Below the pieces are notes generated by a model. The model saw only the letters and a list, made by a program, of their open reading frames with translations, was not told the origin of the DNA and searched no databases. From the IMG/VR virus record IMGVR_UViG_3300043446_001134, positions 1 to 24,130 of that record: a stretch of 24,130 nt of DNA. One strand, given 5' to 3'. Below, in pieces: positions 10,002-18,633 of the stretch (its first letter is position 1; the number at the start of each line of letters is the position of its first letter). A program made the position numbers and the translations under genes. This DNA comes from a virus.

Positions 10002-11309
10002 TTAGGCCTTCTGGCCGGAGTACTTGGCGAACAGCGACTTGAACTTGGTCAGGTCGCCAGCGGCCTCATGCACCGCACGCGCGGTAGCGGCCTTGATGTC
10101 CATCGAGGGCTCGCCCTCGTCGGTCACGGTGTGCTGCGCCACGGTCGGCACATTGATCGGATTCTTGGCCATGGTGGCCTTCCAGAACGCGATCTTCGCG
10201 GCCGGGTTCGCGCAGTCAGACAGTTCCTCCACCATGCTGTTTCGGAACTTGGAGCAGCGGAATCCGTCGCGGATCATGCCGTCCACTTCCTTGCCGAACC
10301 GCTCCAACTTCAACTGGCGCTCCAGTTCCTGAACGCGCGCGAAGAGTGCCTTGGTGGACTTGTCGCCCTTGCTCATCTTGTGCTTGCCTCCGTACGCAGC
10401 CTCCGCTTCGGCTTCCATTTCGTCCTCGTCCTCTTCCTCTTCGCCGTGGTGCGAGCCGATGTCAACATGGACGCCCTCGGCCTCATGCTCGTCGTGCATC
10501 GGGCCGTAGAACTTGTCGGCATCGTCGTGATCGTCGTGCTCGGCGGCAGCGGCCTCGGCTTCCATTGCGGCAGCATCGGCAGCAGCCTCATGCTTCTCCT
10601 CATCCTCGTCGGCCTCGCACTCCATAGCGGCGTGCCGGGCAGCAGCCTCGGCAGCAGCCTCATGGCGCTTCTTGGCCTCTGCTTCCATCTTCTTCTTGTG
10701 CTTCGCGGGCATTGGCTTTCCTTTAGTCGTGGACGGGATGAAGGTGTTCAAACCACCGCCAACGCCGACCATTCCATCAAACTTTTCCTTGGAGTCAATG
10801 GTTACTGCCACCACTCCCATAGGACGCTCGAAGACCATCTTCGAGCCGTGCTTCGTGAATCGCGTATCCGGCAGCGGCCTGCGCGGCGTGTCGCGCCCAA
10901 GCAGAGCCACTTCCGAAAGGTGATCGTCCTTCCAAATCTCGGCGCTCCGACGCGGGTACGCGTTCGTCGCCAGCAGTTCATCGAACCTCGCCTTCGGCAT
11001 CTCGACATCGCCCACAACATAGGCCACGCCATTGCGCTCCTCGTAGCGGACGCTTGTGATGTCGCCCACGGCTTCCGGCGCGGTCGGCCTGCCGTCCTTC
11101 TCATGCTCGATGACGAGTTTAGGCCGCGAGCCGCGAGCAATGAACTTGCCCGTGCGCCGCACGATGTCCTTCACGCGGCCATTGTCATACGCCTGCATGG
11201 CCTCGTCATCGTCCGAGTCGATGGACGGATCGAAGCCCATGAACAGTTCAAGGTTCTTGATGCGAACCTTGCCTTCGGGCGTGTTCTCGACGGTGTGGGA
11301 CGCTGCCAC
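10002..11309 (-). CDS. Prohead protease-scaffold fusion (Mu I-like)
   Basis: 435 aa. I prefer the GTG at 11309 because AAGGAG (11323-11318) lies 8 nt upstream; a GTG at 11315 overlapping the previous stop as GTGA is only 2 nt from that site. Residues about 10-165 form the protease. VIEHEKDGR gives a candidate catalytic His69, and YPRRSAEIW followed by VALLGRDTP gives candidate Ser122, the pattern of phage serine proteases that mature the prohead. Residues about 200-310 are extremely Ala/Glu/His/Asp-rich and probably disordered or helical, followed by a coiled coil (about 318-340). These, with the helical C-terminus, are the scaffold part. Fusion of the two functions in one polypeptide is known in Mu-like and other phages. 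The long antisense frame opposite is a composition artefact. Confidence 0.82.
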   Translation of the reverse strand: MAASHTVENTPEGKVRIKNLELFMGFDPSIDSDDDEAMQAYDNGRVKDIVRRTGKFIARGSRPKLVIEHEKDGRPTAPEAVGDITSVRYEERNGVAYVVGDVEMPKARFDELLATNAYPRRSAEIWKDDHLSEVALLGRDTPRRPLPDTRFTKHGSKMVFERPMGVVAVTIDSKEKFDGMVGVGGGLNTFIPSTTKGKPMPAKHKKKMEAEAKKRHEAAAEAAARHAAMECEADEDEEKHEAAADAAAMEAEAAAAEHDDHDDADKFYGPMHDEHEAEGVHVDIGSHHGEEEEDEDEMEAEAEAAYGGKHKMSKGDKSTKALFARVQELERQLKLERFGKEVDGMIRDGFRCSKFRNSMVEELSDCANPAAKIAFWKATMAKNPINVPTVAQHTVTDEGEPSMDIKAATARAVHEAAGDLTKFKSLFAKYSGQKA

Positions 11310-11311
11310 GC

Positions 11312-11608
11312 TCACCGCTCCTTCCGGCCCTTGCCGAAGTAGAAGCGATCCTCGACGGCGAAGCGGGCGGGAGTGCCGGGGCGGGAGTTCACAGACTTGC
11401 CTCGCGTATCGCTCTCGACCGTGCCGCCGTAATGTGCAACCAATCCCTTTGCGTACTTCACCGCGTCCTCAAAAGTATTGAATGAAAGCGTGCGCGCCTG
11501 TGCATACACATTGTGATTCACGGTTCCATCCGGCTTCAGCGGCATCACGCGAAACTTGCCAGTCAAATGATCTGGAGACACATACACCTTTCCAAGTTCA
11601 CTTGCCAT
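11312..11608 (-). CDS. Small protein ending in RPGxPxRF and EDRFYFGK peptides
   Basis: 98 aa, ATG overlapping the upstream stop by 11 bases; its TGA abuts the protease gene. Residues 1-68 form one small alpha/beta domain with a helix TFEDAVKYAKGLVAHYGG. Residues 75-83 are SRPGTPARF and 86-93 are EDRFYFGK, followed by a basic end GRKER. Both peptides recur in the upstream gene, and the DNA encoding EDRFYFGK is repeated there with one mismatch over 23 bp. Much of the N-terminal coding part is near 50% GC, below the flanking head genes. The function is not recognised. The location between the F-like protein and the protease suggests a capsid interior or assembly role, which is inference. Confidence 0.72.
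   Translation of the reverse strand: MASELGKVYVSPDHLTGKFRVMPLKPDGTVNHNVYAQARTLSFNTFEDAVKYAKGLVAHYGGTVESDTRGKSVNSRPGTPARFAVEDRFYFGKGRKER
11331..11353. repeat. Direct repeat copy 1, encodes EDRFYFGK
   Basis: 23 bp matching 12421-12443 with one mismatch (G at 11345, C at 12435). In the 98-aa gene it encodes the near-terminal EDRFYFGK. The two copies have the same orientation and the same reading phase and bracket the two-gene unit. Confidence 0.85.
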
Positions 11609-12458
11609 TCTTCACCTCCACATTCCAGTAGCGTCCCGTCGTAGCGACGGGACTGGTTGCGCTGTAGCCCTTGCTCGCCACACGGCGACCGAAGTCGCGG
11701 GCGAGGTCGGCATCCTCGAACGAGATCACGAGCGTATCGCTACCGACCTGCACGGCCCGCCATCCGCCATCCGGCATCGCCTTCTCGGAGAGCAGTTTGC
11801 CGAGCATGGGCGACTTGCTCGCGTCGGCGAAGTTGCCACGATCGAGGCTAGATGCGTCGAACTTGTCGGGCTGGCCGGGGCGGGAATACATTCCGTATGC
11901 CTTTGCCTCTCGCACAACCTCCAAGAAGTACTTCTTTTCCTCTTCCGTCATTAGACCGCGACGCATCTTTGCTAGAAGTTCTTGAATCGCCACGCCCGCA
12001 ACATCGCGTCCGTCATAGACCGCATCTTCAGCCGAAGCAATTTCATCCATGATGCTGCTAAACCGCTCGGGCTGGCCGGGGCGGGAAGAACGGAGTTTTC
12101 CAAGTTCTGCAAGAGCCGCCCGCTTATGCGCCGCGTACTCTGCCATCGCATCATTCGCGGCCTTCTTCATTGCCGCCACAGATGCCTTGGACTTCATAAA
12201 CGCGGACAGCCCATTCAGAACCGAAATGGCATCTGCATAGCCCGTCTGAAACATTGCAGACCAAGCAGTTCGCAAAACGGCATCATCTGACTTTGCAGAA
12301 CGCGAATCGGGATTGTTCGCCGCTTCTCGAATCGCTTCCCCATAGGAGCGGAAAAAGCGATCTCGGAATGCGATCATCTTCATGTCGTGATCGCGCGCAA
12401 ACCGCTCGGGCTGGACGGGCTTGCCGAAGTAGAACCGATCCTCTGTCTTGTTGGTCAT
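11598..12458 (-). CDS. Multi-segment protein punctuated by RPGQPxxF peptides
   Basis: 286 aa, ATG overlapping the upstream stop as ATGA. It begins with EDRFYFGK (residues 6-13) and PVQPERF (14-20). A helical segment (21-124) then leads to SRPGQPERF (125-133), a second helical segment (134-191) leads to SRPGQPDKF (192-200), and the protein ends in an alpha/beta domain (about 228-283) whose helix SFEDADLARDFGRRVASKG resembles the one in the next gene. The RPGQP codons are carried on a 21-bp DNA repeat. The first two segments are clearly lower in GC than the last. No enzyme motif, TM segment or signal peptide is visible, and I do not recognise the family. The architecture suggests that separate small domains were joined at a shared linker. 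Confidence 0.72.
   Translation of the reverse strand: MTNKTEDRFYFGKPVQPERFARDHDMKMIAFRDRFFRSYGEAIREAANNPDSRSAKSDDAVLRTAWSAMFQTGYADAISVLNGLSAFMKSKASVAAMKKAANDAMAEYAAHKRAALAELGKLRSSRPGQPERFSSIMDEIASAEDAVYDGRDVAGVAIQELLAKMRRGLMTEEEKKYFLEVVREAKAYGMYSRPGQPDKFDASSLDRGNFADASKSPMLGKLLSEKAMPDGGWRAVQVGSDTLVISFEDADLARDFGRRVASKGYSATSPVATTGRYWNVEVKNGK
11866..11886. repeat. In-frame 21-bp repeat encoding RPGQP, copy A
   Basis: Identical over 21 bases to 12067-12087. On the minus strand it encodes the SRPGQPD part of SRPGQPDKF in the 286-aa protein. Diverged relatives lie at about 11361-11390 (RPGTPARF, in the 98-aa gene) and 12399-12420 (PVQPERF, at the start of the 286-aa gene). Confidence 0.8.
12067..12087. 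repeat. In-frame 21-bp repeat encoding RPGQP, copy B
   Basis: Identical to 11866-11886, in the same orientation and reading phase. It encodes the SRPGQPE part of SRPGQPERF. The bases just beyond it on the plus-strand left side (12061-12066) also match the diverged copy near 12400. Confidence 0.8.
12421..12443. repeat. Direct repeat copy 2, encodes EDRFYFGK
   Basis: Partner of 11331-11353, 23 bp with one mismatch and 1,090 bp apart. In the 286-aa gene it encodes EDRFYFGK at residues 6-13. Recombination between the copies would delete almost the whole two-gene unit and leave a short in-frame peptide. Confidence 0.85.
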
Positions 12459-13510
12459 CGTTTGAATCCGGGGTCGGGGTATAGGCCGCGATCTATGATC
12501 TGCTGCCTCTGCGCGTTATACCGCGCAAGCGCAGCCCGATCTAGACTTCCGTCCCGGCGGATTAGCCCCATGTCCTCCGCCTCGTCTCGCGTCACGGGCA
12601 TCAGCGAACCGCGGCAGTTGAAGCCATTCGGGGGTACTAGCCCCTGCCGCTTGAAGTCCGCAGCCGTGGCGATGTAGCCATCCATCTGCCAATGCGAGCC
12701 GGGGTTCCGGCTCTGGCCCTTGCCGCGATACACGCCGCCGGGTGCGCCTCGCGTCCGGCTGTCGTGAATCTCCACCAGCCGCAGCAGCGGAGCCCAACTG
12801 GCTACCGCCTTACTGTCCATGGTGTCGGCGGTGGCGTCGTTATACGCGCTCGCCATGTTCGTGCGGTAGACCGTTTCCAGCCGTGAAGCCGTCAAGCCCA
12901 AGATGCCTTCGGCTTGAGCCCTTCGGATGAAGTTCGACAGTCCGCCCGTCTTCAAACCCTTTGGTATCGCGCTCGTCTCGATGGCGTCAGCGATAAGGGC
13001 TTGCAGCCGCTTGGCCTGCGCCTTGGTCGCACCCTTTGCGCGAAACGATCCGTCTAGCGTCTGCTGGAGGGCCAAGAGGCGCTTGGACAGGTCGCGCACG
13101 GCGCTCTTGCTCTCGGCCTTGGCGATCCGCTCGGCCAGCCGCCGCATCTGCCGCCGGATTCGCCGCACCTCCCACCACGAACGAGGGATGCGCCGCCGGA
13201 AGCCCATCAACGCCTCCCAGAAGATGCCGGGTTCAAAGCCGCCGATTCCGACGGCTGCAAACCGATCCGGCATCTCATCCGGCCATTCCTGCGGCTTCCA
13301 TTCAGCGCCCTGCTGCTTCGTGGCTGCGTGGACGCGAGCCTTGCCCGCTAGGGCTGCAAGGGTCAAGACCTGCCCCAGAGCCTCGGCGTACTGCTCCCAC
13401 GCCTCTGAGGCGTCCTCCGGCTCTCCACGGACCTCAGATGCGATGGCGAGCCGATACCATCGCGCAACTTGCGCCAGTCCGCGCTTGTAGATGCGCTCAA
13501 ACTCGGTCAC
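12455..13510 (-). CDS. Minor head protein, Mu F-like head morphogenesis
   Basis: 351 aa from GTG at 13510, overlapping the portal stop as GTGA. Residues about 1-200 are helical and basic. ETVYRTNMASAYNDA (212-226) is the signature found in SPP1 gp7/Mu F-like minor head proteins. HWQMDG near residue 273 and PPNGFNCRGSL (293-303), with its invariant-looking Cys, complete the C-terminal fold. These proteins bind the portal and enter the procapsid, and some are ejected with the DNA. Position directly after the portal agrees with the family. Confidence 0.9.
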   Translation of the reverse strand: MTEFERIYKRGLAQVARWYRLAIASEVRGEPEDASEAWEQYAEALGQVLTLAALAGKARVHAATKQQGAEWKPQEWPDEMPDRFAAVGIGGFEPGIFWEALMGFRRRIPRSWWEVRRIRRQMRRLAERIAKAESKSAVRDLSKRLLALQQTLDGSFRAKGATKAQAKRLQALIADAIETSAIPKGLKTGGLSNFIRRAQAEGILGLTASRLETVYRTNMASAYNDATADTMDSKAVASWAPLLRLVEIHDSRTRGAPGGVYRGKGQSRNPGSHWQMDGYIATAADFKRQGLVPPNGFNCRGSLMPVTRDEAEDMGLIRRDGSLDRAALARYNAQRQQIIDRGLYPDPGFKR

Positions 13511-15480
13511 TTGCGGCGGCGCTTGCTGGCCTTAGTCTTACGGCCACGCTTGGCAGCAGTCACCTTACGGCCACGCTTCGCGTGCAGTTCGCCGCGCCGC
13601 TCCATGCTCTTCGCGATGGCCACGGCCTGATCGCGTGGGTAGCCCTCGCCGATCAGAACGCGGATCTTGTCCGACACAGGGTCCGGCTTGGCGGCCTGCT
13701 CATCCTTGCCCTCGGCGCGGTCCAGTTCCTTGGTCTTGCGGGCTGCCCAGCCCTTGCCTGAATCGCCACCCCACAGCAGCCACGCGATGTAACCCGCTGA
13801 ATCCTCGCCCCAGCCCTCGCCCTTCTTGTCCACCTCATGGCGAGCGAAGTAGGAGTGCATCCGGCGCACCGTGGACGGCGAGAGCGTCTTGCGGTTCGAC
13901 AGGTCGCGGGCACGAGCCACGCCCACCTCGGTGCCGCCTCGGCCATGCTTCTTCCGCAGTTCAAGGCCACGACGGGCCGCGCTAGCCATCTCCTCGGTTG
14001 GGGTCAGATCGACATCCGACAGCGCGAACTTGTCCTTGCCGAACGGGGTCGGCTCGTCGCCCTCCGGTTCGCTCTCCGGCCCCATCGGAGGCAGGTCCAG
14101 CCCCGGCATACCTCCCATGCCGCCCTCGGCTGGAGCCTGAAGCACCGATTCATCATCCTCCGGCTCGGCCAGTCCAAGCACCTTTCGCGCCTCGCGCTCG
14201 CTGACGCGGCCACCGAGTTTCGTGAAGGCTTCGATGGACTTCATGTACTCTTCGGGATTTGGCTTGCTGACGCTAAAGGCGAACTGTGGCGGCGTGGCAT
14301 CGTCCCCGAAGTTGTAGCGATACAACGGCGTCACGATCTCCCGCGTCATCGTTTCGGCCAGAGCGTTAGCGATGTAGGTAAGTTGACGGTTCAGCGTCTG
14401 CGCGTGCTGGTCGCCAATGCTTGAGCCCAGTCCACTTGTGACAGCCTGCGAAGTGCCAGTCTGACCAAGGATCACTTCCTTGATGTTCTCGGTCAGGTAC
14501 TCGACCATCTTGGCGAAGGCTTCGGCGTTGCCGCCGTTCGGCTCAAGGATCTTGAGGTCATAGCCCGCATCGGTGCCGTCGCCATTCTTTGGGATCAGCA
14601 CAGACACATCGCCTAGCAGGTTCTGCATGGCCGTTTCCATGTCGGCCTTGGCTGCATCGTTTCCCACCGGGTAGTTGCCCACGCGGATGCCCATGCTGTA
14701 CCGCTCGATGTAGGTGGCCCAGTTCTGCAGCGCCGCCTGCTTCAGTGACCAGTAGTACCAGACCAGATCCCGCATACCCCGGCCGAGATAGGCATTCTCG
14801 GCCTCGTATGGGTCATCGAAATCGACGCCCTGCGGCTGGTAGGTATGCAGCGCAATCGTGCTTCTCTGCTCGTCATCGAGCGGCAGAACGCGCGCATCCC
14901 AGCCGATGACCGTGCCGTTGATCTTGTCGGTGTCCGGGGCCGCTCCGCCGATGGTCTGCGTGTAGTAGCGCGGACCGACCTTGAGGCCAAGTTGGCCCAG
15001 TTCGGTCATGGTCAGGCTGTCGCCGTGAATGGGCATCCAGTCCCTGATGTAGATCGTCTCGCCGTGCTTGCCAAAGACCATGTTCACGGCGCTGCGCCCA
15101 TACCACAGAGCGTCCAGCAAGTGACGCATGAGATCCGTGAAGCGGGGCGTGTTCTTCAGCAACTTGTCGATGAACGCGGCCTGCTCGACAGCATCTTCGT
15201 CATCCTGCATATCTGCCGGGCATTGCACGGTCCACTCGCTGCACGCCACGGACAACTGCAACATGAGCAGCGGCCCCATGATGTCGGGGTCATAGCGCAT
15301 CTGCCGCTGGAGTTGCCGATCCTTGCGGAACGCCAGCGAACCTTGCCGCAGGATCTTGTTGACCGACAGGTAGTAGGAGCGTTGCATCTCCACCGGGGTG
15401 ACAAGCGCCTGAAACACAGGTGCGGCTCGCACCATGTCGGCGCCTTGGGTGGTTGTTGCCTCGCTCGTGTTCTCGTTCAT
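13507..15480 (-). CDS. Portal protein, DUF935 (Mu gp29-like) with fused C-terminal modules
   Basis: 657 aa from ATG at 15480, which overlaps the terminase stop as ATGA; an in-frame ATG at 15504 would add 8 residues. The core (about 20-430) carries the Mu gp29-like pattern: RQGSLAFRKDRQLQRQMRYD, then DPDIMGPLLMLQLSV, LWYGRSAVNMVFG and IRDWMPIHGDSL. It forms the dodecameric DNA channel at the capsid vertex. From about residue 495 the sequence changes to a separate phage module (HGRGGTEVGVARARDLSNR, HEVDKKGEGWGEDSAGYIAW). Another follows near 601-633 (DKIRVLIGEGYPRDQAVAIA), and then a Lys/Arg-rich tail with KRGRK twice, coded by a 15-bp direct repeat at 13537-13551 and 13564-13578. I know these two modules from other phage proteins; their job here is unknown. 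Confidence 0.9.
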   Translation of the reverse strand: MNENTSEATTTQGADMVRAAPVFQALVTPVEMQRSYYLSVNKILRQGSLAFRKDRQLQRQMRYDPDIMGPLLMLQLSVACSEWTVQCPADMQDDEDAVEQAAFIDKLLKNTPRFTDLMRHLLDALWYGRSAVNMVFGKHGETIYIRDWMPIHGDSLTMTELGQLGLKVGPRYYTQTIGGAAPDTDKINGTVIGWDARVLPLDDEQRSTIALHTYQPQGVDFDDPYEAENAYLGRGMRDLVWYYWSLKQAALQNWATYIERYSMGIRVGNYPVGNDAAKADMETAMQNLLGDVSVLIPKNGDGTDAGYDLKILEPNGGNAEAFAKMVEYLTENIKEVILGQTGTSQAVTSGLGSSIGDQHAQTLNRQLTYIANALAETMTREIVTPLYRYNFGDDATPPQFAFSVSKPNPEEYMKSIEAFTKLGGRVSEREARKVLGLAEPEDDESVLQAPAEGGMGGMPGLDLPPMGPESEPEGDEPTPFGKDKFALSDVDLTPTEEMASAARRGLELRKKHGRGGTEVGVARARDLSNRKTLSPSTVRRMHSYFARHEVDKKGEGWGEDSAGYIAWLLWGGDSGKGWAARKTKELDRAEGKDEQAAKPDPVSDKIRVLIGEGYPRDQAVAIAKSMERRGELHAKRGRKVTAAKRGRKTKASKRRRK

Positions 15481-16907
15481 GGGGTGTTTCCGTAGAGCCG
15501 CCACAACTTCGGCCGATTACTGGCGACCGTTGCTGGCTTGGCTTGTGGATCATAACGGCGCGTTCTGCCATGCTCTAGCAGATCCACCACCGCATCCACG
15601 GTGTCATCATGCTCCGCAGCAGGGAAAGCAACCATCTCGTCTCGGATTGGCTCCTGCGACGGTTCCAGCCTGCCGTCCGCTCGGCATCGCAGACGCAGCC
15701 GTCCTTGCTCAACCATGGGCTGCGCCTCGCTCGCTCGCACCACCTTGTCCTTCGTCCGGGCCAGCCGCAGGATGGGAATGCGAGTGGCAGTAGCGAGTTG
15801 CTGGCAGAGGCCCGCCTGAGGGCCATTGCCCTCCGCGAGGATCTGCGAAACCTGTAGGCGCTCGCAAGCGTCCACAGCACGGCGCATGAACTCCGGGAAG
15901 GTCGCCTGCACGCGCAGGCATTCCAGCACCCAGACATTGGCCTCTCGGTCGATCAGCGCGATGATGCACACGCTGTAATCGCCCTTCTCGCCGCGCTTCT
16001 CCGTGAAGGCCCAGTCAATCGCCGCGACGATGCGTCCGTTGTTGCGGGCGCTGTCGGGGGGATCCACATGGTAGTACCCGGCCTCTAGCCAGTCCGGTCG
16101 GAAGATCAGGGCATCGTCCGATACAGGAACCAGTTCGTAGGCGCGAGCAAATCCCAGCGGGCCCATCTCTCGGCGCTGGCTCTCCAGCACCTCCGGCGTG
16201 AACACCTCCGGCCATGGCGACACGGAGCCACGGCAAGGCCGCCAGAACAGGCTGCCATCCTGCTCGCCTGCCCGCTTCCAGTCTGAGGTCAGGTCATCGT
16301 TGTGGTATGGCGTGAACAGGCGCCAAGTACGCGGCCTGCCCGCGCTGAAGTCCCGCATGGGCAGCCAGTTGTTGCGCCACGCTTCCTTCACCTTCTCGCG
16401 CTCCGCTGGGATCAGCACCGAGTTGCGGAGGTCACACACATCGTCCCCACAGAGGAGGTCGGCACGGCCGCCTGCGCGTCCGAAGATGTTGGCGGCCTGC
16501 ATCGTGGCATCGCGGTGCAGGGATTGCGACTTCACGACGATCTCGCTGCTGCCGTCTGTCGAGGCGTCGGGTTTCAGCATCTTCACCTCGGGGAAGACGG
16601 CGCGGTAGACATCGGAGCGCATGATCTGCACCACCATGCGGATCTGCTCCTGCGCCTTGATGACCGTCTGTCCGATGTGCTTGATGCGGATGGCGGGGTT
16701 GCGTCCAATCTCCCATGCCTGCCGGATGCCGAGTTGGACGCTCTTGCCGTGGCCTCGGGGCACGCCTACGGCAGCGTCTCCATGCTTGGAAAGGTGCGCT
16801 TGTAGATCGGAGTGCAGGCCGGATTGGTTGAAGCCAAGCAATTCGGCGAACACATCCGGGCACTCCCGTGCTGCCGCAATTACGGCATCGGTTTCATCCG
16901 GCATCAT
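15477..16907 (-). CDS. terL: Terminase large subunit
   Basis: 476 aa, ATG overlapping the small-terminase stop by 14 bases; a second ATG follows immediately. The ATPase domain has Walker A VPRGHGKS (49-56) and a Walker B-like LLCGDD (151-156), in which the usual Asp-Glu is Asp-Asp. The RNase H-like nuclease domain has AIDWAF (Asp298), AEGNG (359-363) and HDDTVDA (433-439), giving the expected acidic metal ligands. The length is normal. The protein docks on the portal and pumps and cuts concatemeric DNA. It sits between the putative small terminase and the portal in the usual order. Confidence 0.93.
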   Translation of the reverse strand: MMPDETDAVIAAARECPDVFAELLGFNQSGLHSDLQAHLSKHGDAAVGVPRGHGKSVQLGIRQAWEIGRNPAIRIKHIGQTVIKAQEQIRMVVQIMRSDVYRAVFPEVKMLKPDASTDGSSEIVVKSQSLHRDATMQAANIFGRAGGRADLLCGDDVCDLRNSVLIPAEREKVKEAWRNNWLPMRDFSAGRPRTWRLFTPYHNDDLTSDWKRAGEQDGSLFWRPCRGSVSPWPEVFTPEVLESQRREMGPLGFARAYELVPVSDDALIFRPDWLEAGYYHVDPPDSARNNGRIVAAIDWAFTEKRGEKGDYSVCIIALIDREANVWVLECLRVQATFPEFMRRAVDACERLQVSQILAEGNGPQAGLCQQLATATRIPILRLARTKDKVVRASEAQPMVEQGRLRLRCRADGRLEPSQEPIRDEMVAFPAAEHDDTVDAVVDLLEHGRTRRYDPQAKPATVASNRPKLWRLYGNTP

Positions 16908-17316
16908 CGGGCTTCGGTCCCAGCCGTCGGGCGATGATTTCGCGGGCGCGGGCTTGGATCTCGGGGCTGATCACCACACGCTCGGTGGCCTCGCCATCGT
17001 CCAACCGCTCCATCTTGTCGAGGGCGATGGCGGCGTTCACCTTGTCGCGTGCCATGGCCGCCAGCACCTCAGCGGCCCGCAGGCGGTCGCGGGCGGTCGC
17101 GCCCTCATTGGCAAGGATGCGAGCGCAGATACCCGGCGCAGCCCGCCATACGGCTTCCGGGATCTCCCACCCCTGCGTCACGGCCCGCTGTAGGAGCCGC
17201 AGCGCGGCCCGCTGGCGGTTCGGAGGCTCGTCTAGTACCGGAACGGCCTCCGGCGGCGTGGTCGGCTCCACGGGGGCTATGGCGGGCGGCTTGGACTGGA
17301 TTCGCTTCCTAGCCAC
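16894..17316 (-). CDS. Putative terminase small subunit
   Basis: 140 aa from GTG at 17316, overlapping the methyltransferase stop by 8 bases; no ATG is available upstream in this frame. A Pro-rich basic N-terminus (1-32) is followed by helices rich in Ala and Arg (about 33-120) and a basic C-terminal helix EIQARAREIIARRLGPK. No clear helix-turn-helix can be assigned by eye. Small terminases are poorly conserved, so the call rests on size, helical composition and overlap with the large terminase gene. Confidence 0.65.
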   Translation of the reverse strand: MARKRIQSKPPAIAPVEPTTPPEAVPVLDEPPNRQRAALRLLQRAVTQGWEIPEAVWRAAPGICARILANEGATARDRLRAAEVLAAMARDKVNAAIALDKMERLDDGEATERVVISPEIQARAREIIARRLGPKPDDAG

Positions 17317-18433
17317 GCTGCGCTTTCTTGCCCGTCAGGGTTTCCCACCGCTTCACGATGACATCGCAATAGGCGGGGCTGATCTCCATGCCGTAGCACT
17401 TGCGGCCTAGTTGCTCGGCGGCGATGAGGGTCGTGCCGCTGCCGCAGAATGGTTCATGTATTGCGTGTCCTGTGTCGGTAAATGCCTCAATCAGCGTTGC
17501 ATACAACTTGACGGGCTTTGGGCAACTGTGCATTTCTCGCAGACTCTTGCCTTCAATCTCCACCCGATCCGTCATGCACTCAATCACATCGGTCGACAGT
17601 CTTGCGGCCGGAGGTTTGCCGACAATGAGAATCGGCTCCCAAACGGAGGCACCACCGACTCCATTTCCTGCGGCTGCGAACTTCTTGAACCACACTGCGA
17701 CCTTCGCCTTTCCAAATCGTTCAATGTCTCTCGCAAGGTTTGGCAATCCCGGCGTCCATATCTTGAACTGTGGGCCGTGCACAAAAGCGGCTTTTACTAG
17801 TTCGGCATTCGCGTCATTGTCTCCATCGTCGTGATCCGCGTATTCATATCCAATTCCATACGGCGGATCTGAAACTATGGCGTCGGCAACTTGCCCGTCC
17901 ATCAGCCGCGCGACATCCTCGGCCTTCGTGCTGTCACCGCACAACAGCCGATGCTCGCCGAGCAGCCACAGGTCGCCGGGTTTCGTGATCGGGTCGTCGG
18001 GAGGTTCCGGCACTTCGTCCTCCTGCACCTCGACCGTCGCGCCCTCCAACGCCTGAATCTCGGCATCCGTGAAGCCAGCAGCCTTCGCCAGTTCCTCGTC
18101 CTCGATCTGCAACGCGGCCAACTGCTGCGCCAACGCTTCCTCGTCCCACTCGGCCAGTTCCGCCGTTCGGTTGTCCGCGATGGCGTAGGCGGTCGCCTCG
18201 CTGCCCTCCAACTCCGTCCGCACGATGTTGATGTGATCCCACCCCAGCGCTTTCGCGGCTATCACCGTGCCGTTCCCGGCGATGATGATGCCCTTGGCGT
18301 TGACCAGCACGGGCCGCTGCTGGCCGAACCGCGTCAGGCTCGCCTTGATCGAATCGAGGTTCTTGGCGGGGTGCCTCCGGACATTGGCCGGGTCGAGCGT
18401 CAGGGTTTCGATCTTCACGCGCTGCGTCTGCAT
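17309..18433 (-). CDS. ParB-N domain / DNA methyltransferase fusion
   Basis: 374 aa from ATG at 18433. The upstream frame is open but has no coding character and includes a hairpin. Residues about 5-130 are a ParB/Srx-like N-terminal domain (LDPANVRRHPAKNLDSIKAS, then IIAGNGTVIAAKALGW). Residues about 150-374 are a SAM-dependent methyltransferase with DPPYGIGY (189-196) before FCGSGTT (329-335). This is the beta-class order expected for N6-adenine or N4-cytosine methylation. The architecture is common in phages beside terminase genes, where it may protect or mark DNA before packaging. The part between the two motifs is near 51% GC while the ParB half is near 66%, suggesting replacement of the target-recognition region. 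No cognate restriction gene is present. Confidence 0.88.
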   Translation of the reverse strand: MQTQRVKIETLTLDPANVRRHPAKNLDSIKASLTRFGQQRPVLVNAKGIIIAGNGTVIAAKALGWDHINIVRTELEGSEATAYAIADNRTAELAEWDEEALAQQLAALQIEDEELAKAAGFTDAEIQALEGATVEVQEDEVPEPPDDPITKPGDLWLLGEHRLLCGDSTKAEDVARLMDGQVADAIVSDPPYGIGYEYADHDDGDNDANAELVKAAFVHGPQFKIWTPGLPNLARDIERFGKAKVAVWFKKFAAAGNGVGGASVWEPILIVGKPPAARLSTDVIECMTDRVEIEGKSLREMHSCPKPVKLYATLIEAFTDTGHAIHEPFCGSGTTLIAAEQLGRKCYGMEISPAYCDVIVKRWETLTGKKAQRG

Positions 18434-18446
18434 GGCAGAAATGCTA

Positions 18447-18470
18447 CCGCCCCGACGGAAGCCGGGGCGG
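18447..18470 (-). promoter_or_regulatory. GC-rich hairpin just upstream of the methyltransferase start
   Basis: A perfect 8-bp stem (CCGCCCCG with CGGGGCGG) surrounds an 8-nt loop, ending 13 nt before the ATG at 18433. On the minus strand it is followed by TAGCATTTCT, too poor in T to be a convincing terminator. No free Shine-Dalgarno precedes the ATG, so the hairpin may limit initiation or mark an mRNA end between the lysis/accessory block and the packaging block. Confidence 0.5.
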
Positions 18471-18495
18471 CAACACCGAACAGGTCCGTTGCTCG

Positions 18496-18633
18496 TCAGT
18501 CCTTCTTGCCGGGGATCCATCCAGCAATCTTGGAGAGCGGGACAAGGTGTCCAGCAATGTAGCCCACCGCAAGGGCGGCCACGGCTCCCCAAACGCTACC
18601 CACCAGACTCTCGATGCTTGCCAGCGTCATCAT
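18496..18633 (-). CDS. 45-aa single-pass membrane protein
   Basis: The frame starts ATG ATG at 18633/18630 with GAAGGAG about 8 nt upstream and ends at TGA 18496-18498, giving 45 aa. It overlaps the lipoprotein gene stop. Residues about 13-31 (SVWGAVAALAVGYIAGHL) form one TM helix, followed by a short amphipathic stretch, GWIP (38-41) and a basic end. The strong ribosome site and tight coupling make it a real gene. The same TM-then-GWIP-then-basic arrangement appears in the upstream lipoprotein. A small holin-like or lysis regulatory role is possible; nothing proves it. Confidence 0.7.
   Translation of the reverse strand: MMTLASIESLVGSVWGAVAALAVGYIAGHLVPLSKIAGWIPGKKD

Follow-up and report, generated by a model that had tools for sequence, protein, structure and literature searches.

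Exchangeable cassettes parted by a conserved linker in two head-module genes of a tailed phage: candidate recombining polyproteins of virion-packaged proteins

The nearest known systems to the locus described here are the internal proteins of phage T4 and the polyvalent proteins. According to the available portions of two sources (PMC9026906; PMC12373910), T4 internal proteins are injected and block type IV restriction enzymes, and the latter source cites Repoila (1994) for the polymorphism of T-even genomes. IPI, IPII, IPIII and Alt are small, variable packaged proteins with a common leader (the capsid-targeting sequence) and a protease site, which the products considered here resemble in their variability and common leader and, by inference, in their packaging and protease site; the T4 prohead protease gp21 is the best structural match, on a weak model, of the protease found here. 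In T4, however, each gene yields one mature protein and the cut follows Glu (L/I-x-E), whereas here a single chain holds several proteins in a row, F, M or Y is expected as the P1 residue, and the linker both repeats between modules and is a recombination joint. Polyvalent proteins and effectors fused to MuF or portal proteins (Iyer et al., 2017; PMC5512222) are multi-domain effector chains that are likewise encoded with portal/MuF genes, with extensive domain rearrangement (H. pylori jhp1044), as far as the accessible text of that paper goes, and an ART-PolyVal domain is present in a relative of this locus. In contrast, the cassettes here are only 50-170 aa long and mostly without known relatives. 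A word search of PMC5512222 found no “linker”, “short repeat” or “maturation protease”.

Two further comparisons are less close. In the giant phages phiKZ and SPN3US a gp21-like protease recognises a short motif in many packaged proteins and processes some of them at more than one place, but those cuts remove propeptides at an A-x-E type motif, and exchangeable cassettes are not described for the substrates in the portions of the source that were available (PMC10052503). Domain mosaicism in phages (Smug et al., 2023; PMC10684548) shares with this locus the ongoing shuffling of fragments in host-interaction proteins; the words “linker”, “protease” and “cleavage” were not found in that paper. 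Within the accessible parts of the sources cited above, neither T4 internal proteins nor polyvalent proteins are described as a multi-unit chain whose repeated linker is both cleavage site and exchange point, and a literature search for the peptides themselves, which did not cover subscription literature, gave no match.

The window, meaning the whole stretch of DNA analysed, covers 24.1 kb of tailed-phage DNA and includes a head module of the Mu type, which lies on the minus strand. The head genes follow a Mu-like order and also include a cement-like protein and the major capsid protein:

15477-16907, minus strand: large terminase
13507-15504, minus strand: Mu-type portal (DUF935, PF06074) with a cassette-like C-terminal tail
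12455-13510, minus strand: MuF-like minor head protein (PF04233), which bears cassettes in clade 3 of the relatives
10002-11315, minus strand: protease-scaffold protein

Beside the terminase genes lies a ParB-N-like domain (a weak match) fused to an N6/N4 DNA methyltransferase (17309-18592, minus strand). The sole hint at a host is a contig binned as Nitrospiraceae bacterium AM_1312 that has the same locus (L083; OMJK01000020.1), and one such contig is too little to name a host. No isolated phage relatives of gene A or of the protease were found.

Genes A and B are laid out as follows (↓, predicted cut):

11598-12458, minus strand: gene A, 286 aa, composed of leader, family 43 cassette, linker, family 13 cassette, linker and conserved C-terminal domain (family 0)
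12399-12443, minus strand: gene A leader EDRFYF↓GK-PVQPERF↓A, conserved across alleles, a candidate targeting propeptide (targeting role inferred)
12420-12443, minus strand: EDRFYFGK in gene A
12399-12419, minus strand: PVQPERF in gene A
12087-12398, minus strand: gene A cassette 1 (family 43), 54% GC
12060-12086, minus strand: gene A linker SRPGQPERF (encoded as TCCCGCCCCGGCCAGCCCGAGCGGTTY), recombination joint at which cleavage is predicted, AlphaFold pLDDT <50 at aa 118-134
11886-12059, minus strand: gene A cassette 2 (family 13), 50% GC
11859-11885, minus strand: gene A linker SRPGQPDKF, AlphaFold pLDDT <50 at aa 191-214
11601-11858, minus strand: gene A conserved C-terminal domain (family 0), constant in most alleles, 64% GC
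11312-11608, minus strand: gene B, 98 aa, composed of family 88 cassette, linker SRPGTPARF and EDRFYFGKGRKER
11387-11608, minus strand: gene B cassette (family 88)
11360-11386, minus strand: gene B linker SRPGTPARF
11330-11353, minus strand: EDRFYFGK in gene B

A preliminary description of this DNA had reported these peptides as the punctuation of a two-gene unit, with segments between them that differ in GC content. All of the peptides were found, in frame on the minus strand and with every position exact, and the compositional contrast holds: gene A of the window has 74-78% GC in its linkers, 50-54% in its cassettes and 64% in its C-terminal domain, and over all alleles the mean is 52.4% for cassettes (n = 159) and 64.0% for the C-terminal domain (n = 34), with the window at 61.5%. 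In the AlphaFold model, the gene A protein is divided into discrete units of helical or mixed structure, and confidence is low for the leader and for both linkers. RPGxPx[RK]F occurs three times in the 7178-aa proteome of the window versus 0.0 times per shuffled proteome (2000 shuffles), which together with the linkage of the motif to head genes rules out a chance or low-complexity repeat.

That linkage comes from IMG/VR, where a search with gene A gave 16 loci and pattern scans gave 51 stretches with RPGQPERF and 46 with EDRFYFGK. Every EDRFYFGK contig of the collection carries the same head genes. RPGQPERF without head genes was limited to a handful of contigs (ten), each with one isolated hit and nothing else of the locus, and we estimate that about 14 would be expected by chance. 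The peptides are thus tied to head genes, and their occurrence in unrelated genomes, which would have spoken against a head-linked system, was not seen beyond roughly this chance number.

From these relatives, 45 gene A alleles and 39 gene B alleles were compared; they are related to one another, and the counts that follow are therefore not independent. The segments between the peptides fall into about 84 unrelated cassette families arranged in 79 different orders over the 84 alleles (44 architectures in the 45 gene A alleles, 35 in the 39 gene B alleles). Gene A consists of a leader, zero to five variable cassettes and then usually one constant C-terminal domain; the ED(R/K)FYFGK.GQPERF leader is conserved and the cassettes behind it vary. 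Gene B consists of cassettes with RPG[AE]K-D-x-M or KATF linkers, followed by EDRFYFGKGRKERF and often by more cassettes. Nine cassette families are common to both genes, among them family 43, the first cassette of gene A in the window and of gene B in one relative; family 13 recurs in gene A of three others. The linker types remain gene-specific (PERF in A, KDMM/KATF in B) while cassettes move between the genes. A short CWDGYEPVGTKQKDGRTVPNCVP module with a linker of its own (EQPEEF or EKPERF), assigned to gene A family 1, was seen in many alleles and also in the larger phage protein families phrog_28131, 9737 and 4359.

At the DNA level, SRPGQPERF is almost always encoded as TCCCGCCCCGGCCAGCCCGAGCGGTTY. 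The four-fold degenerate sites of the linker are 91% identical between genomes, independently of the divergence of the neighbouring conserved domain (37-94%), and linker DNA is thus conserved beyond what the protein requires. Homology between genomes ends at the linkers, with 91% of 174 distinct breakpoints lying within 6 nt of one versus 18% for random positions (89% versus 18% in a pairwise version of the mapping). Breakpoints and GC pattern together look like the trace expected from exchange at short shared sequences. By this comparison of sequences alone, each gene is a chain of exchangeable cassettes parted by a conserved linker, and cassettes have been swapped, gained, lost and moved between genes A and B with breakpoints at the linker. 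The 84 alleles, with their swapped cassettes and mapped breakpoints, directly support the proposal, made from the window only, of a domain-cassette system joined at a common linker.

The linker also has a counterpart outside genes A and B. A pattern, [P/K]-x-x-[F/M/Y]↓[A/G/D/S/T], is shared by the A/B linkers, the junction between portal core and tail, and the junction between protease and scaffold, the latter two being found in the window at:

14017-14040, minus strand: portal junction GKDKF↓ALS, where the exchangeable tail modules join the portal core
10776-10790, minus strand: KEKF↓D at the protease/scaffold boundary (aa 176-180), a predicted self-cleavage site

With a motif trained on gene A/B linkers only, KEKF↓D ranks 1 of about 430 positions in the window protein. 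Across relatives, the boundary between the protease domain and the acidic scaffold reads DSKEKF↓DEIG, DSPARF↓AEIG, DSPDQF↓AEIG or DSKAKF↓GEMG, and, out of about 420 positions, the A/B-linker matrix gives this junction the top rank in 25 of 31 alleles and a place among the top five in 30 of 31, compared with an average of 0.6 and a best of 21 for column-permuted motifs. Five alleles rank the junction fourth or fifth, and one (L025, KVRNA) lacks it. In the portal, PFGKDKF↓ALSD separates the core from a tail made of modules that vary among relatives, and the same matrix puts this junction first in all 35 portals.

The form of the linker differs between three clades. Clade 1 combines the linker SRPGQPERF with a protease junction of SKEKF, SPARF or SPDQF; clade 2 combines SRTGxKAKF↓A with LKSKF↓D; and clade 3 has KATY↓A or KYTF↓G linkers, a KYTY↓A portal site and a KSTY↓T or KSTF↓T protease junction. 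Where a cassette family is common to clades 1 and 2, its linker is that of the clade in which it sits. In no clade is Glu, the residue after which T4 sites are cut, predicted at P1; it is F, M or Y throughout. The linker pattern is thus shared with the protease/scaffold and portal junctions and changes form in step with the protease lineage, for which the simplest reason is recognition by the same enzyme. No cleavage has been observed, but the earlier suggestion of protease cleavage by analogy with T4 gains support at the level of sequence from the motif at both junctions and its covariation with the protease clade.

The portal tail is itself modular, both in the window (13507-14040, minus strand) and in eleven relatives. 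Its modules after KD(K/R)F↓ALSD include a GLELRRKHGRGGTEVG module and a GYPQDQAVAIA module, and some tails add KDRF↓DGANCGIG..GFQPGNKC plus a coiled coil or an ADP-ribosyltransferase-like end. The latter likeness, noticed by eye in two portals (L050 and L070), was not confirmed by Pfam and PDB searches. The scaffold part of the protein at 10002-11315 (minus strand) has more motif-like sites (KHKM↓S, KATM↓A) and could be cut into pieces.

Instead of being cut, the linkers could serve as capsid- or scaffold-binding tags, one per cassette, on chains that are packaged and injected whole, in the manner of uncleaved polyvalent proteins such as the N4 virion RNA polymerase. At nine residues the peptide is long, and its strong conservation exceeds the needs of a 4-5 residue protease site; polyvalent proteins can, according to the available text of PMC5512222, be injected uncleaved. 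We nevertheless hold uncut tags to be unlikely: beyond the A/B linkers, only P4, P1 and P1' recur at the portal, at the protease/scaffold junction and in the other clades, a self-cleavage boundary needs no binding tag, and the extra conservation extends to synonymous sites, which points to the DNA.

The candidate enzyme has an invariant His71 and Ser124 across alleles. In VIA-align, its structural model matched T4 gp21 best (Z 6.6) and, with lower scores, several assemblins of herpesviruses (VZV 4.3). The model is weak (pLDDT 55), and Z is below 8, where the tool warns that a hit may reflect no more than a shared arrangement. A Foldseek search with the same model gave nothing significant, with gp21, first only in VIA-align, at rank 15. 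No sequence match was found in Pfam or the PDB, nor to MP29 ORF33 or Mu gpI; for Mu gpI this rests on hhalign with a thin alignment (probability 0.2%, Neff 1.4).

Most cassette families match nothing known, and none of the polyvalent domains in Pfam was found among the 82 cassette representatives scanned. A few clade 1 families match whole small phage proteins. Nearly the full length of phrog_7884 is covered by family 45, which also matches the 65-aa protein phiPSA2_02; the gene for this protein, the second one annotated in the T7-like phage phiPSA2, lies between the left end and the gene for a T7-like RNA polymerase, upstream of the latter. Family 26 spans phrog_9437, which is 98 positions long, and has a match in Milano_093, from a run of small ORFs in phage Milano. 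The match of family 78 is a 50-aa ORF close to cro and dicA. As these matches are to whole stand-alone proteins, at least a few cassettes are complete small phage proteins strung together. Family 48 matches Variovorax phage V45v66. In clade 3 the MuF gene offers an equivalent slot: one relative (L135) has a single site (DKATY↓AKEDWP), which represents the empty version, and in four (L130, L132, L133 and L138) a cassette is inserted with a KxTY↓A site on either side of it. The insert of L132 holds, between its two sites, an ART-PolyVal domain (PF18760, E 1.1e-17), predicted to be an injected ADP-ribosyltransferase.

These contents bear on the idea that the chains are scaffold or core parts which are cut up and discarded at head maturation, their cassettes diversifying for assembly (head size, DNA interaction) without any injected function. 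The locus adjoins the scaffold gene, and cleavage breaks the T4 prohead core proteins into pieces, most of which exit the head, as stated in the accessible part of PMC9026906. Scaffold parts must fit a conserved capsid, however, whereas the cassettes show no sequence relationship to one another, are poor in GC and can be interchanged; the stand-alone phage proteins that some of them match lie outside head genes, one of them in a T7-like early region, and a predicted effector domain fills the equivalent slot in clade 3. Discarded core peptides thus seem quite improbable. Very unlikely, finally, is the idea that the peptides are mere flexible linkers without a role in the protein, retained as a GC-rich repeat that serves recombination. 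The conserved DNA, the mapped breakpoints and the predicted disorder of the linkers fit this, and DNA conservation alone could explain a conserved peptide. It would not explain why the residue pattern turns up again in the portal and the protease-scaffold protein, away from any SRPG linker and in a form that changes with the protease clade, nor why gene-specific types persist despite cassette movement.

All three alternatives are less likely than a cut polyprotein. We propose, with a probability of roughly 70%, that genes A and B encode recombining polyproteins, chains of host-takeover proteins that are packaged in the virion and separated by the prohead protease. That they are cut, packaged and injected is an inference, as no data on any of these steps exist for these phages. 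The chains would be expressed together with the other head genes and brought into the prohead by the EDRFYF leader, whose conservation fits capsid targeting. An assemblin-type prohead protease would then cut the linkers after an aromatic residue or Met, and the same enzyme may sever itself from the scaffold and trim the portal tail. The freed cassettes would stay in the head, be injected with the DNA and serve early in infection to take over the host or to counter its defences. The linker would thereby have a dual use, as protease site for the product and as homology joint for recombination between phages.

A broader reading, to which we lean only slightly, is one of combinatorial delivery, whereby the phages of this group have more than 80 small effector modules in common and trade them at a linker that is both a recombination joint and the site cut by the head protease of each lineage, such that any inserted module would automatically be packaged, released and injected. 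The open problem of how phages acquire and deliver unrelated injected proteins would become a readable grammar: with the linker marking the start and end of each packaged protein, candidate host-takeover or anti-defence proteins could be listed by pattern search. The finding also predicts an otherwise unknown cleavage specificity for a whole group of prohead proteases, and it may offer a natural plug-in format for protein delivery by phage.
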